From: a virus
Length of the DNA stretch: 38,440 nt
Direction: 5' to 3' (one strand)
IMG/VR virus record: IMGVR_UViG_3300045960_000096
Coordinates: 1-38,440 of that record
In this document: positions 4,435-11,990 of the stretch, one piece after another
Position numbering within the stretch: position 1 is the stretch's first letter
Layout: each line of letters begins with the position of its first letter
Translations under genes and position numbers: made by a program
The notes under the pieces: model-generated
The model's database searches: none
Seen by the model: the letters and a program-made list of their open reading frames with translations, nothing else
Told to the model about the DNA's origin: nothing

Positions 4435-5286
4435 TCAGTTTCCTCTTTTCGTTTTGTGTGCGCTCCGTATCGTAGCCCCAACCTCGGCGTCGGGCAACGA
4501 CGTGCCGACAGAAACGAGCCAGTCGCGGACTCGAGACTCGTCCCAGTTTGCCTCGAACAGGTCGCAGGCGGCTTTGAAACACGAAGCATTGCGGATTCCT
4601 TCCTGGAATCCAGCTCCGGCCTTCCACGCGCGGCATCCCGCTTTCGTGGTAGGATCGCCTTTAGGCCCTGCACTGTATTGCCGCGGTTCTGATGACGATC
4701 TGGTAATCTCCTGCACATGGGTCTTAGCAGGCGCTTGTTTCGGTGCCTGCTTTTTTGGTCTCAGCTCGGGGCATGAGAATCCTTCTTTAATGCTGATGAT
4801 GTCTTTGCTAGGCCAAAAGAACCGTGCCCCGTCCTTTACCTGCTCGTCAGCACCCAGAAGCTCCACATAGGCGGCAAGGATGCTCTTATACAAGGGCAGA
4901 TAGCTATACAGATGTGGGAGAAAGAGCACGACTCGAAAACGATCGCATGCTGGTTTCTTTCCTTTCGGTACGCCATGGCTCTTTGTGGTTGCGATGATGT
5001 GCCTTAACCGAGCGAACTTCTCGACCGCCCACGCAAGCGTTTGGCCTTCGTCGAAGTCGAGCGCAACGATCGATGACCCGAGGAAGTTCGCTTCGAGACG
5101 GTGGCCGTTCTCATAACGCCCGGGGGACCACGGTTGCGAAATCATGCACTGGGCAAGCTGCTCGAGCGACCACTCCCACGGTGACGTTTGGCCGGCTTGC
5201 CACGCTCCCGGATCCGTTCCCCAAGGAAAGGTCCAGCCGTGCGCGAGCGCGTGAGCTTGGGTTTCGGGTGCGTGGAGGGAAATCAT
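4435..5286 (-). CDS. archaeo-eukaryotic-type primase (Prim-Pol-like) with PriCT-like tail
   Basis: A 283-residue protein. Residues 74-80 (VALDFDE) give the acidic metal-binding DxD motif of archaeo-eukaryotic primases. TTKSHG (100-105), CDRFRVVLFLP (114-124) and DGARFFWPS (152-160) match the order of conserved motifs in phage and plasmid members. After a linker, residues 230-280 (GIRNASCFKAACDLFEANW...) resemble the PriCT helical domain that follows such primases. It would make primers for DNA synthesis. The ATG at 5286 overlaps the stop of the HTH gene (ATGA) and has AGGGGAAG upstream, so I prefer it to the ATG ten codons upstream. It pairs with the DUF3987 gene. Confidence 0.8.
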   Translation of the reverse strand: MISLHAPETQAHALAHGWTFPWGTDPGAWQAGQTSPWEWSLEQLAQCMISQPWSPGRYENGHRLEANFLGSSIVALDFDEGQTLAWAVEKFARLRHIIATTKSHGVPKGKKPACDRFRVVLFLPHLYSYLPLYKSILAAYVELLGADEQVKDGARFFWPSKDIISIKEGFSCPELRPKKQAPKQAPAKTHVQEITRSSSEPRQYSAGPKGDPTTKAGCRAWKAGAGFQEGIRNASCFKAACDLFEANWDESRVRDWLVSVGTSLPDAEVGATIRSAHKTKRGN

Positions 5287-5519
5287 TGTACTTCCCCTAA
5301 CGAGTGCCTTTTGCAATCGTTCGTCCCGCTTGTCTCCTGTTGATCAAGCAGAGCGTTTATGAGCCGAAACATTACAATGGAGGCTTCTCGGCGTCCGCAA
5401 GACAAAGAGCGGATGTAGTCGAGAGAAAAACCGGAGAAATAAGCGAATTCTTGCAACGTTACTCCTAGGTAATCCATGGATAGACGGAAATCTTTTGCGT
5501 CAATAGCTGTTTTCTTCAT
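5283..5519 (-). CDS. small XRE-like HTH regulator
   Basis: A 78-residue protein, first gene of the leftward operon. Residues 12-50 (RLSMDYLGVTLQEFAYFSGF, then SLDYIRSLSCGRREAS) fit a Cro/XRE-type helix-turn-helix: a helix, then TLQEFAYFSGFS as the first HTH helix and turn, then a recognition helix. The start at 5519 has GAGG five bases upstream; an upstream ATG at 5651 would add 44 residues lying over the promoter and is not favoured. Its place at the divergent control region suggests that it regulates one or both early promoters, perhaps through the palindromes there. No protease or dimerisation domain of a CI-type repressor is present. Confidence 0.65.
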   Translation of the reverse strand: MKKTAIDAKDFRLSMDYLGVTLQEFAYFSGFSLDYIRSLSCGRREASIVMFRLINALLDQQETSGTNDCKRHSLGEVQ

Positions 5520-8066: not shown

Positions 8067-9809
8067 ATGTTTTTGACGATACGAACAAAAGGGTTCCCAG
8101 GCGTTGCAGATGGCGACTACAAACTAGGCTTGATGAACCGGATTGCAGGTCCCAACGGGAGCGGAAAAAGCAGCCTTTTCCGGTCTGCTTTGTGGGCTGT
8201 TACTGGACTGTGTCCCGATGGCAGCGAAGCGGGGAACCGTTACGGAGATTGTGCCGTGGAAGTGGAACTCACCGTGGGCAACATTATTACGCGCAAACGC
8301 GCAAACAAAAAAGCAACACTTGCGCACAATGCCATGCCCATAACGCAAGAGATGCTCGAGAAGGCGCTAGCGATTCCACCCCGTGCCTTTGCCTGCATGC
8401 TGTTCCCAATGACATTCTTTTCGTTGTCGGAAGCTCAGCAACGAGATATCTTTCTGGCAATAACCCCAGAGGTTAGTCGCGAGAAGGTCTTCGCTAGCCG
8501 AGTGCCTGGCACGTTTGCAATCGACTGGAGCCTGCCCACGCGCAAGCTGTACGACAATGCCGTTGCCGTTAGAAGGGATTTAGAAAAGGAAGTCGCAAAT
8601 CTTGAGGGCCAGATTGAGCAGTGCAAACTAGCATATGAACAAGCGCCTGCCGAAGCGCTGGACACGTCCGCGCTGGAAACGCGGCTCAAAGAAGTGCATG
8701 CAAGACGCGGTAAGGTCATGGGAGAAATCGAAGCGGTGAAAGGGGTGCTCGAATTGATTTTCGAGTATCGCGCTGCCCGCAACATTTTCGAGCGCCAAAG
8801 GTCGGCTCGGCTTGCGCATGAGAATTTGCAAAAAAACGGTCCTGCCAAAGCAGAACCGAACGCAGATGCTCTTAGGAGTTTGATGAACAGCGCCCTAGAT
8901 GCGCATAACCTGTCCAAGTCCAGCTTAGCAGAAATTGAAGCTCGGGGCAGGGCGCTAGCAGCAGAAATCGAGCAGCTCGCCAAAACGCCGACAGAATGCC
9001 CAACGTGCCATAGAGCATTCGATGCCGACAGCCTCAAAGAAGTCCACGACGCGTTTGCGCTCAAAACCAAAGAGAAAAACGGAATTGCAGCCGAGTACAA
9101 AAAGGCCCAAAAAGAAGTCGAAAAGTCTTTCAAAGTCTTCACCGACCTGCAAAAGAAATACAAGACCGCTTGCGAGGAAGAAGCCAAAACGGCACTGCCT
9201 GAGGTTCCACCGGAACCCGTAGAACCCGAGCGCTTAAACGATGAGACTGCGTTGCGAGAACAAAAGAAAGCGCTCGAAATAGAGCTCAATGGCCTCATCG
9301 AAGAAACGGGTGCGCTGAAAGCTCAGGTGGGGACTCCCACGGGAGAAACAAAGGCACAGGTTGGAGAACGTGGCAAGGAATTGCGAGCACGGCTAGACCC
9401 CAAAACTCGGGACTTGCAGAACCTCCTAGCATTGGAAGAAGCGTTCCATCCCACACGTGGCATCGATGCCGAGTGTCTCAAGCGCAAGCTTGCCGCCGTT
9501 GCGCTGCCCGGCTTCGAGTTCCAGTTCTCCGAGACGCTTGCAAACGGCAACGAAAAGGACTGCTTTCGGGTTCGGCGCACCGACGGGGTCGCACTGGGAG
9601 ATCTGAGCAGCGGCCAAAAAATCAAGTTCGGCCTTGCGCTTGCCCAGCTTGTTGCGGACCTCACGGGGACACAATGGCGAACCGTTTTCGTCGAGGGCGC
9701 CGATGTGGTCGATGCGATCCCAATGTTGCCGCGCTTCCAGATCTCAGTCGAGCGCGTTGACAAGGCCGCCAAGGGGTTGGTGGTCGAAATTAAGAAGGAG
9801 TTTGCCTAA
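8067..9809 (+). CDS. Rad50/SbcC-like SMC-type ATPase
   Basis: A 580-residue protein with SMC/Rad50 architecture. Walker A is GPNGSGKSS at 28-36, long charged helices form two coiled-coil arms, a CPTC zinc hook lies at 311-314, the ABC signature LSSGQKIKFGLA is at 513-524 and the Walker B region is TVFVEGAD at 539-546. In relatives Walker B reads like hhhDE; here the pair appears as E-G, so ATP hydrolysis may be altered. Family members tether and process DNA ends with an Mre11/SbcD nuclease, which is not in this window. The ATG at 8067 has GGAGG five bases upstream; reading frame extends much farther upstream but overlaps recT. Confidence 0.8.
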   Translation: MFLTIRTKGFPGVADGDYKLGLMNRIAGPNGSGKSSLFRSALWAVTGLCPDGSEAGNRYGDCAVEVELTVGNIITRKRANKKATLAHNAMPITQEMLEKALAIPPRAFACMLFPMTFFSLSEAQQRDIFLAITPEVSREKVFASRVPGTFAIDWSLPTRKLYDNAVAVRRDLEKEVANLEGQIEQCKLAYEQAPAEALDTSALETRLKEVHARRGKVMGEIEAVKGVLELIFEYRAARNIFERQRSARLAHENLQKNGPAKAEPNADALRSLMNSALDAHNLSKSSLAEIEARGRALAAEIEQLAKTPTECPTCHRAFDADSLKEVHDAFALKTKEKNGIAAEYKKAQKEVEKSFKVFTDLQKKYKTACEEEAKTALPEVPPEPVEPERLNDETALREQKKALEIELNGLIEETGALKAQVGTPTGETKAQVGERGKELRARLDPKTRDLQNLLALEEAFHPTRGIDAECLKRKLAAVALPGFEFQFSETLANGNEKDCFRVRRTDGVALGDLSSGQKIKFGLALAQLVADLTGTQWRTVFVEGADVVDAIPMLPRFQISVERVDKAAKGLVVEIKKEFA

Positions 9810-10066
9810 TGGCACTATGTTTTGACAGCGTACAGGAGGCAGGCAAGCACCTTATCGAGGTGGCTGCTTTCTTGCGCAAGCAACGCATTGTTTGGAGTGC
9901 AGACCACGATTCGTGGATGCGCTTCGAACTCTCGCTCGCGGGGCCGAGCCCTCGCAAAGTAGAAGAGGAAAGACTTTTTGAGATATATCGAGACTTTTTC
10001 GAGGAGAGGATTCCCAACGGGATTCTGGTTTGGGCAACGAACGTTCTAAGGGAGATGCAAACGTGA
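9809..10066 (+). CDS. hypothetical protein, 85 aa
   Basis: An 85-residue acidic protein (MALCFDSVQEAGKHLIEV...) with no recognised domain; mostly helical by appearance with tryptophans at intervals. The ATG overlaps the stop of the SMC-like gene (TAATG) with AAGGAG 8 bases upstream, and its own stop overlaps the GTG start of the next gene, so it is translationally coupled on both sides. Its position between a Rad50-like ATPase and dUTPase suggests a DNA-metabolism accessory role, but nothing in the sequence shows it. Confidence 0.6.
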   Translation: MALCFDSVQEAGKHLIEVAAFLRKQRIVWSADHDSWMRFELSLAGPSPRKVEEERLFEIYRDFFEERIPNGILVWATNVLREMQT

Positions 10067-11283
10067 TTTCCAAAGAAAAGGAAATGAGCCGATGCGAGAT
10101 ATGCGGAAACTCTTTTTACATGAAGCCGTCGAGGCAAACACGATCGAAAACGCACACATGCAGCATGGCTTGCAAAAAGAAAATGTGCGTGGTGAGGTCT
10201 TTGGGAGATAAAAACCCCAATAGCAAGTATCATATTGACCCGCTTTTTTTTGACACAGTAGATACCGAATTCAAGGCGTGGTTGCTTGGATGGATCGCTA
10301 GTGATGGACACATCAAGAGCGGGCAAGAGAACTCTATATGTCTTCAAATACATATGAAGGACATTGATGTTCTCGAGAGCATTTGCAGATACTTTGCTCT
10401 TCCTAGTGGTTTTATCAAGCGGTACCCTAAGAAGAATCAAGCGAAAATCAGTTTTTGCATGGCTCAATGGAAAACGGCAATCTGCGCTCTACTTGGCATT
10501 GACGGTGGAAAAAAATCGCATACTCTGAGGTACCCTGACAGCCTGCCTGCTTGGCTCGATGTTCACTTCATTCGTGGTTATTTCGAGGGAGATGGTCATG
10601 TAGCTAGCTTGCCGGCAACAGCGAAAAGAGGATATGCGAGAGTTAGCATTGTGTCGAATTCACCGAGAATGCTTGAGTCGCTCAAGGCTCGTAGCAATAA
10701 CATGCTAAGAAGTCACAAAGAATCTGTCGAAGCGGATGGCGGAAAAGCGATTGACTTTCTTGGGTGGATATATGCGAACGCAACGTATAAGATGGAAAGA
10801 AAATACAATGCGTATCGCGATATCGCGACTTTTAACAGGGGGAAGTACGGAAAATTCATATGGCAAAAAGCAGATGAGAATGCGGTTCCTCCAAGCAAAA
10901 AACGAGCATCCGACTCTGGATACGATTTGACTGTGATATCCGTTGTATCGGTCAACGGCAACTACACTCTTTATGATACCGGAATTCGTGTAGTGCCTCC
11001 AACTGGCGTCTATTTCGATGTCGTACCAAGAAGCAGCCTTTGGGATAGTGGCTACATAATGTCGAATAGCGTTGGAGTGATTGACTGTTCATACACCGGC
11101 ACGATCAAGGTCGGACTGTTGAAGGTGAACATGGAAGCACCGGATCTGAAACTGCCTGCAAAGATAGTGCAGATGATTCCAAGGCCACTGGCACATTTTG
11201 AGAGCTTAGAAGGAGACGTGCTGAATATCGACACTAATCGAGGCGAAAGTGGATTCGGATCGACAGATGGGAGAAAACCATGA
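10063..11283 (+). CDS. dut: LAGLIDADG endonuclease fused in frame to dUTPase
   Basis: A 406-residue two-part protein. Residues 11-37 hold a C-x2-C...C-x3-C zinc finger (CEICG, then CSMAC), as in phage homing endonucleases. AWLLGWIASDGH (72-83) and HFIRGYFEGDGH (168-179) are the two LAGLIDADG helices with their acidic metal residues. FLGWIYANATYKMERKY near 230-247 is the usual domain end. From about 264 the protein becomes a trimeric dUTPase with all five motifs: ASDSGYDL (282-289), PRSSL, GVIDCSYTG, QMIP and RGESGFGSTD. dUTPase splits dUTP into dUMP and pyrophosphate. The GTG start at 10063 has TAAGGGAG upstream and overlaps the previous stop. No intein splice motifs are present. Confidence 0.85.
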   Translation: MISKEKEMSRCEICGNSFYMKPSRQTRSKTHTCSMACKKKMCVVRSLGDKNPNSKYHIDPLFFDTVDTEFKAWLLGWIASDGHIKSGQENSICLQIHMKDIDVLESICRYFALPSGFIKRYPKKNQAKISFCMAQWKTAICALLGIDGGKKSHTLRYPDSLPAWLDVHFIRGYFEGDGHVASLPATAKRGYARVSIVSNSPRMLESLKARSNNMLRSHKESVEADGGKAIDFLGWIYANATYKMERKYNAYRDIATFNRGKYGKFIWQKADENAVPPSKKRASDSGYDLTVISVVSVNGNYTLYDTGIRVVPPTGVYFDVVPRSSLWDSGYIMSNSVGVIDCSYTGTIKVGLLKVNMEAPDLKLPAKIVQMIPRPLAHFESLEGDVLNIDTNRGESGFGSTDGRKP

Positions 11284-11990
11284 GAATCGCAGTAATCGAC
11301 ACAGAAACCACCGGCCTTGACCTGATGAGTAATGAGCTAATCGAGATGGCGTTTGCAGTTGGGGAGTTCGACAACGACGGCAAGCTCGTGTTGATCGAGG
11401 CATTAAGCGCGGTGTTCCCGTGCGACAAAAACGAGGCCGAGTCTATCAATGGCATCTCGCCAATTCTTTCCCAGTCGGGCACTGTAGAGCTCTACGCAAT
11501 CGTCAAAAGCCTGCTCGCTGTGGATGTTTTTGTTGCGCACAATGCCAAGTTCGACAAAGGTTTCTGTCAGAAATTCTTTGCCGAGGTGCCCGACAAAGAA
11601 GAATACGCAAGCTTGATGAGCAAGGCGTGGGTTTGCACTTTGAGCGACTACACGATTGCGGACAAAGCAGGACGTCGCCTTACGCACATGGCCGCCGATA
11701 TGGGCGTCTTTATGAGCGCGTCAAAGCATCGTGCCCTTATTGATGTTATGCTTCTTTTTGAGGTCGTGTCGCGTCTGGGTCATGTTGCCTTTGTTGACGC
11801 TTTTGAGCGTGCCCTTTGGCCTGAATGGCGAGTCAAGGCCGAGGTTCCATTCGAGCAAAAGGACCTGGCTAAAGAGGCGGGATTCCAATGGGAGCCCAGT
11901 AAGAAAATGTGGCTTAAGGACGTGAAAGCAAAAGACGAGCAATCGTTGCTTGCGCTGTTTAATTTCCCAGTGAAACATAGGAGACTGTAA
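11280..11990 (+). CDS. DnaQ-like 3'-5' exonuclease with DUF5710-like C-terminus
   Basis: A 236-residue DEDDh exonuclease. Exo I is AVIDTETTGLD (4-14), Exo II is FVAHNAKFDKGF near 84-95, and Exo III is HRALIDVMLL near 152-161 with the catalytic histidine and aspartate. Such domains remove 3' nucleotides in proofreading or repair. Residues 185-220 (WRVKAEVPFEQKDLAKEAGF then QWEPSKKMWLKD) match the DUF5710 type of domain (VPyxEKdxAKxxGaxWD...kxWyv), often appended to phage and plasmid DNA enzymes. The ATG overlaps the dUTPase stop (ATGA). No polymerase is seen in the window, so its partner is unknown. Confidence 0.85.
   Translation: MRIAVIDTETTGLDLMSNELIEMAFAVGEFDNDGKLVLIEALSAVFPCDKNEAESINGISPILSQSGTVELYAIVKSLLAVDVFVAHNAKFDKGFCQKFFAEVPDKEEYASLMSKAWVCTLSDYTIADKAGRRLTHMAADMGVFMSASKHRALIDVMLLFEVVSRLGHVAFVDAFERALWPEWRVKAEVPFEQKDLAKEAGFQWEPSKKMWLKDVKAKDEQSLLALFNFPVKHRRL

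Follow-up and report, generated by a model that had tools for sequence, protein, structure and literature searches.

How selfish endonucleases survive after all of their targets are occupied is an open question. One known route is to live in a self-splicing host, and LAGLIDADG enzymes commonly reside in inteins and introns (PMC3943268). A second is promoter capture; for T4 it has been argued that endonuclease genes are kept because they contain promoters of essential genes lying downstream (PMC2988022). In the same phage soc and gene 56 flank segF, whose target is gene 56 (PMC2988022). As for dUTPase, the nucleocapsid-dUTPase of M-PMV is a natural chain and is functional (PMC3905902), and phage dUTPases are known regulators with non-enzymatic roles (PMC12524310). 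In the locus described here a LAGLIDADG endonuclease is joined in frame to the front of a dUTPase. In-frame capture of the translation start of a neighbour would be a different route from those above, and persistence through capture of a neighbour's start codon and ribosome-binding site seems not to have been described in the literature that we searched. No published endonuclease–dUTPase fusion was found in the literature search.

The window, by which we mean the whole stretch of 38,440 bases that was analysed, is the entire IMG/VR virus record IMGVR_UViG_3300045960_000096, a single metagenome contig. It carries tailed-phage genes (RecT, SbcC-like, SSB, exonuclease, capsid, tail and lysis) and one dUTPase, which is the fused one. 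The fusion gene lies at 10063–11283 on the plus strand, as do all the window features given below. It starts with GTG, stops with the TGA at 11281–11283 and encodes 406 residues, of which 1–262 form a two-motif LAGLIDADG endonuclease and 263–406 a dUTPase of the trimeric type. The Shine-Dalgarno sequence AGGGAG (10049–10054) is 8 bases before the GTG, and its duplex of −8.4 kcal/mol ranks with the best fifth of starts in this phage. The frame is open throughout, with no stops across the endonuclease part as against 9 and 19 in the off-frames. A free-standing homing endonuclease gene would have its own stop and encode a separate polypeptide, whereas here the frame continues into the dUTPase. 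The in-frame join reported in the preliminary description is thus upheld, as a single open reading frame with a good ribosome-binding site and both domains complete.

The fusion gene overlaps both the stop of the preceding open reading frame and the start codon of the gene that follows (ATG at 11280), making it a member of a tight operon in which its neighbours overlap or abut within a few bases. Upstream is a small open reading frame of 85 residues with no family (9809–10066), translationally coupled to the fusion through the overlap of its TGA with the GTG start; downstream, a DnaQ-like exonuclease (11280–11990) shares an ATGA overlap with the fusion stop. The G+C of the two fusion halves is 0.448 and 0.467 versus 0.511 genome-wide. 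Few genes of the record are as poor in G+C as these two halves (10063–11283), and the dUTPase has the lowest GC3 (0.455). This composition might hint, weakly, at joint acquisition of the endonuclease and the dUTPase.

The endonuclease domain covers residues 51–262 (10213–10848). It is matched by PHROG 4645 at residues 43–254 (E = 2e-25), and the fusion protein is also matched by the Pfam family LAGLIDADG_3 (E = 2.7e-7). Motif 1, WLLGWIASDG (10279–10308), and motif 2, FIRGYFEGDG (10567–10596), supply Asp81 and Asp177, both of which are invariant among seven endonucleases. The endonuclease fold is predicted with confidence by AlphaFold (pLDDT mostly above 90), its final helix (245–262) stops at the junction, and the closest solved structure to the model is I-Tsp061I (PDB 2dch; E = 9e-8). 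After the RKYN motif free-standing relatives mostly run on for 5–36 residues, and here there are 13 residues from RKYN to the junction. With its full length and both catalytic aspartates kept, the endonuclease still looks active. Of the zinc finger and two-motif LAGLIDADG domain described previously, the two motifs with their aspartates and the fold stand. The zinc finger, C11-x2-C14-x18-C33-x3-C37 (residues 11–42; 10093–10188), is kept as putative; it was recognised in the sequence, with a weak PHROG 1271 match at residues 5–41 (E = 8e-4) and low pLDDT.

The dUTPase domain (10849–11283) is complete by Pfam, PHROG, alignments and the structure model. The PHROG 135 match spans residues 267–404 (E = 1e-18), the Pfam family PF00692 matches with E = 8e-12, and all five motifs of the trimeric dUTPases, 1–5, are present in the alignments. 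The AlphaFold model, made with an alignment of dUTPases only, is confidently folded and has a Foldseek match to 4gk6 (E = 7e-11). Structure prediction, suggested as a check in the preliminary description, thus returned confident folds for both halves. It would seem likely that the dUTPase part builds the usual trimer, with one endonuclease domain on each N-terminus.

At the join two complete genes have been merged cleanly, head to tail. The sole losses at the junction are the stop codon of the endonuclease and the start codon of the dUTPase, of which everything from the second codon on is present. Gly263, encoded by GGA at 10849–10851, occupies the position of the ATG in free-standing dUTPases, since in 89 of 119 distinct relatives the ATG aligns exactly with this codon. 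Six bases before this old start-codon position is the sequence AGGGGG (10837–10842), with a pairing strength of −9.4 kcal/mol that is matched by 0.69% of the internal codons of this phage and that beats most real starts. The AGGGGG noted before is confirmed, and its reading as an orphan Shine-Dalgarno sequence is supported: its spacing is right for the old ATG column and no ATG, GTG or TTG follows it in frame until the TTG at 10927, itself past dUTPase motif 1. Equally, the dUTPase has no separate start, as had been claimed: the ATG column holds GGA, and the nearest upstream in-frame ATG (10792) is without a Shine-Dalgarno sequence (+0.1 kcal/mol). The codon preceding the GGA at 10849 is TAC, which is one base from a stop codon; that it once was a stop is only a guess.

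A second fusion was found by a further profile search in an AT-rich 73-kb IMG/VR phage record (L226), which also has one dUTPase, the fused one. This protein of 265 residues includes a 122-residue in-frame N-terminal extension, and a strong Shine-Dalgarno sequence (−8.7 kcal/mol) precedes its ATG; no internal start is supported. It is 36% identical to the fusion protein of the window over 250 residues (E = 2e-39). The extension aligns with the C-terminal half of the window endonuclease, at a matching distance from the dUTPase. At motif 2 L226 reads SFIRGLFESGG where the window reads HFIRGYFEGDG, so that the catalytic aspartate is replaced, and in a second aligned stretch L226 has GDRAIDFVGILYNN and the window GGKAIDFLGWIYAN. 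The local score between the 122 residues and the window endonuclease is 66, as compared with 28 ± 4.3 for shuffled sequences, none of 2000 reaching it; among 1145 pieces of real phage proteins used as a control the maximum was 55. Neither Pfam, PHROGs nor an endonuclease HMM from which the window sequence was left out recognises the extension, which is no surprise for a half-domain that has decayed, and its identity therefore rests on pairwise similarity. The first half of the endonuclease, the zinc finger and the catalytic residue are all gone while what is left continues to be read in frame, so the endonuclease probably decayed in place in this lineage. Near the L226 fusion are a TnpB-like/IS605-type transposase reading frame (L226:2306–3472; PHROG 506, E = 7e-131), two genes upstream, and a putative ThyX-like reading frame (4723–5481), named by eye, directly downstream.

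The dUTPase domains of the window and L226 are 43.7% identical and mutually closest. They are sisters, with an SH support of 0.935 and, in an IQ-TREE phylogeny of 36 taxa, a UFBoot of 98; the dUTPase tree is based on 141 columns and has long branches (1.2 each). Both members carry an in-frame endonuclease-derived N-terminus with the ribosome-binding site at the endonuclease end, for L226 as judged from pairwise similarity. No close relative of this phage lacking the insertion was found, so that the comparison proposed earlier as a check could be made at a distance, with the next branches (L228, L227 and L234), which are unfused dUTPases with their own ATG and which we take as the 'empty' state. 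Since the fused dUTPases are sisters and their next sisters are unfused, the association of endonuclease and dut is probably old. The takeover of the dut start proposed in the preliminary description does not look recent, since the sister fusion points to an association that is old and both halves share an atypically low G+C.

These two fusions, both on metagenomic contigs, are the known examples here. Exact peptides of the fusion or of the downstream exonuclease had no match in IMG/VR or GTDB, and SSB matches, tried as a route to relatives, were generic. There was no fusion among the 80 dUTPase loci of the first profile scan, none among the best 80 of 179 IMG/VR endonuclease relatives and 37 from GTDB was fused to or adjoined a dUTPase, and no INPHARED record spans both halves. 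In Shewanella phage 1/4, where the match began before the dUTPase, the dUTPase is separate and the upstream protein is not endonuclease-like; L035 and L237, whose matches also start early, are ordinary separate dUTPases. Among 104 open reading frames upstream of dut no homing-endonuclease family is found in the 25 commonest families listed, and for this reason we do not claim an endonuclease hot spot before dut. The start of dut is overlapped by an HNH gene in Arthrobacter phage SilentRX (L005:1061–1375) and by a T5orf172 gene in Aeromonas phage KLEA5 (L009:996–1358). For nine further dUTPases (L054, L067, L073, L075, L079, L086, L104, L243 and L244) the frame is open upstream of the usual start column, with no ATG there. 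From such reading frames, other N-terminal dUTPase extensions seem to exist in phages.

We think it probable that a free-standing endonuclease was joined end to end to dut, could thereby no longer be cleanly deleted and was kept, decaying in place in L226. In the starting state a free-standing LAGLIDADG homing endonuclease gene would have stood directly before dut. With the stop of the endonuclease and the start of the dUTPase gone, one 406-residue chain would be made from the ribosome-binding site of the endonuclease, presumably staying intact and having both activities. The join could have happened once in a lineage ancestral to both phages, a single origin being what we infer, or twice from a shared endonuclease–dut neighbourhood. 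The surviving Shine-Dalgarno relic suggests a recent join but the tree an old one; two independent joins, or an AGGGGG that arose by chance, would reconcile them. As dut has no start of its own, removing the endonuclease cleanly would shut off dut too, a gene that is presumably essential, and the endonuclease would be held in place as a result: intact in the window, decayed where it stood in L226. The hostage idea predicts just this, that the endonuclease should decay where it is and not be deleted. The earlier claim that loss of the endonuclease would kill dUTPase expression fits with L226, where the remnant is still read into the only dUTPase, and we retain it in this conditional form. More tentatively, it is possible that capture of start codon and ribosome-binding site makes such endonucleases undeletable in general and that, once activity is lost, they decay into an N-terminal domain, the L226 state. 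With one fusion intact and one decayed, this predicted fate, decay without removal, becomes testable. If true, this would be a way for a mobile element to give rise to a new domain architecture in an enzyme of DNA metabolism.

It is improbable, though still the kind of explanation that the very strong Shine-Dalgarno-like AGGGGG before the junction invites, that internal initiation, either at a non-AUG codon after this sequence or at the ATG at 10792, still yields a separate dUTPase, so that the fusion is one of two products and no hostage is taken. Some 20 codons ahead of the dUTPase domain there is indeed an in-frame ATG in both fusions. However, the correctly spaced codon is GGA, which is not a near-cognate start, and the ATA at 10858, 15 bases from AGGGGG, would clip the first strand of the dUTPase. 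Like the ATG at 10792, that in L226 (4211; +1.8 kcal/mol) is without a Shine-Dalgarno sequence. An internal dUTPase start in the window is therefore unlikely.

A similarly low likelihood is given to the fusion being a neutral accident of stop-codon loss with no effect on retention of the endonuclease. Since genes of the operon overlap or abut, one stop-to-sense change could fuse neighbours, and the dut start could have drifted away later. The L226 remnant, on the other hand, has kept 122 codons open in a locus of 27% G+C where none of 5000 shuffles stays open, suggesting long persistence and selection for read-through. We also consider it rather unlikely that the dUTPase has taken on the endonuclease part as an N-terminal domain for DNA targeting or regulation, homing being secondary or lost. 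The catalytically dead half-domain retained in L226 would agree with such a role, as would the non-enzymatic roles of phage dUTPases (PMC12524310), but in the window both catalytic aspartates and the complete fold are kept, as for a still-selfish enzyme.

An artefact of assembly or sequencing is very improbable. Although the window is known from a single metagenome contig, an indel would break rather than create a frame of 406 codons, getting back to two genes would take alterations of the stop as well as the start, and the same join is found in L226, an independent sample. Scarcely credible is a spliced element, that is an intein or a group I intron with its endonuclease frame running into the 3′ exon, because, common as such homes are for LAGLIDADG enzymes (PMC3943268), the fusion protein has no match to a Hint family in Pfam, positions 9700–11400 have no Rfam match even at E ≤ 10, endonuclease coding fills the insert and leaves no room for an intron core, and there is no dUTPase coding upstream of the endonuclease and so no extein on the 5′ side, all of which agrees with the previously reported lack of intein splice residues at the junctions.

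Returning to the end-to-end join of endonuclease and dut, the fusion is a variant of the phage homing endonucleases lodged beside genes of DNA metabolism. T4 segF, segG and mobE are, as in the window, endonuclease genes beside a DNA-metabolism gene and expressed in its operon (PMC2988022). However, the free-standing endonucleases of T4 are separate proteins of the GIY-YIG and HNH types, whereas the LAGLIDADG enzyme of the window supplies the start codon and N-terminus of its neighbour; what is captured in the T4 endonuclease genes is promoters (PMC2988022), and in the window it would be a translation start and a polypeptide. In Aeh1 the insertion of mobE likewise alters the architecture of a host enzyme gene, but nrdA is cut in two, while dut is left whole and extended (PMC2988022). 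PHROG 4645 endonucleases of other phages (for example crAss-like cr116_1, Bacillus PJN02 and Lysinibacillus LC76P1) have the same domain and the same C-terminal RKYN helix; they stop soon after this helix, whereas the window protein continues into the dUTPase. Single chains of about 690 residues with HTH, LAGLIDADG and C-terminal N6/N4 DNA methylase-like parts recur in five viral relatives of the endonuclease (L119:1476–3539, L154:2764–4848, L156:2632–4701, L160:2638–4722 and L188:2674–4725); they share the endonuclease family and the presence of a second enzyme at the C-terminus, though here the partner is a methylase and not a dUTPase; in these five a cutter may possibly be linked to its own protecting methylase. 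In M-PMV, as in the window, a nucleic-acid-binding protein is N-terminal to a trimeric dUTPase, though the partner is nucleocapsid and not a nuclease, and the chain is retroviral and of unrelated origin (PMC3905902). As that chain is functional, a nucleic-acid-binding partner at the N-terminus can be tolerated by dUTPase.
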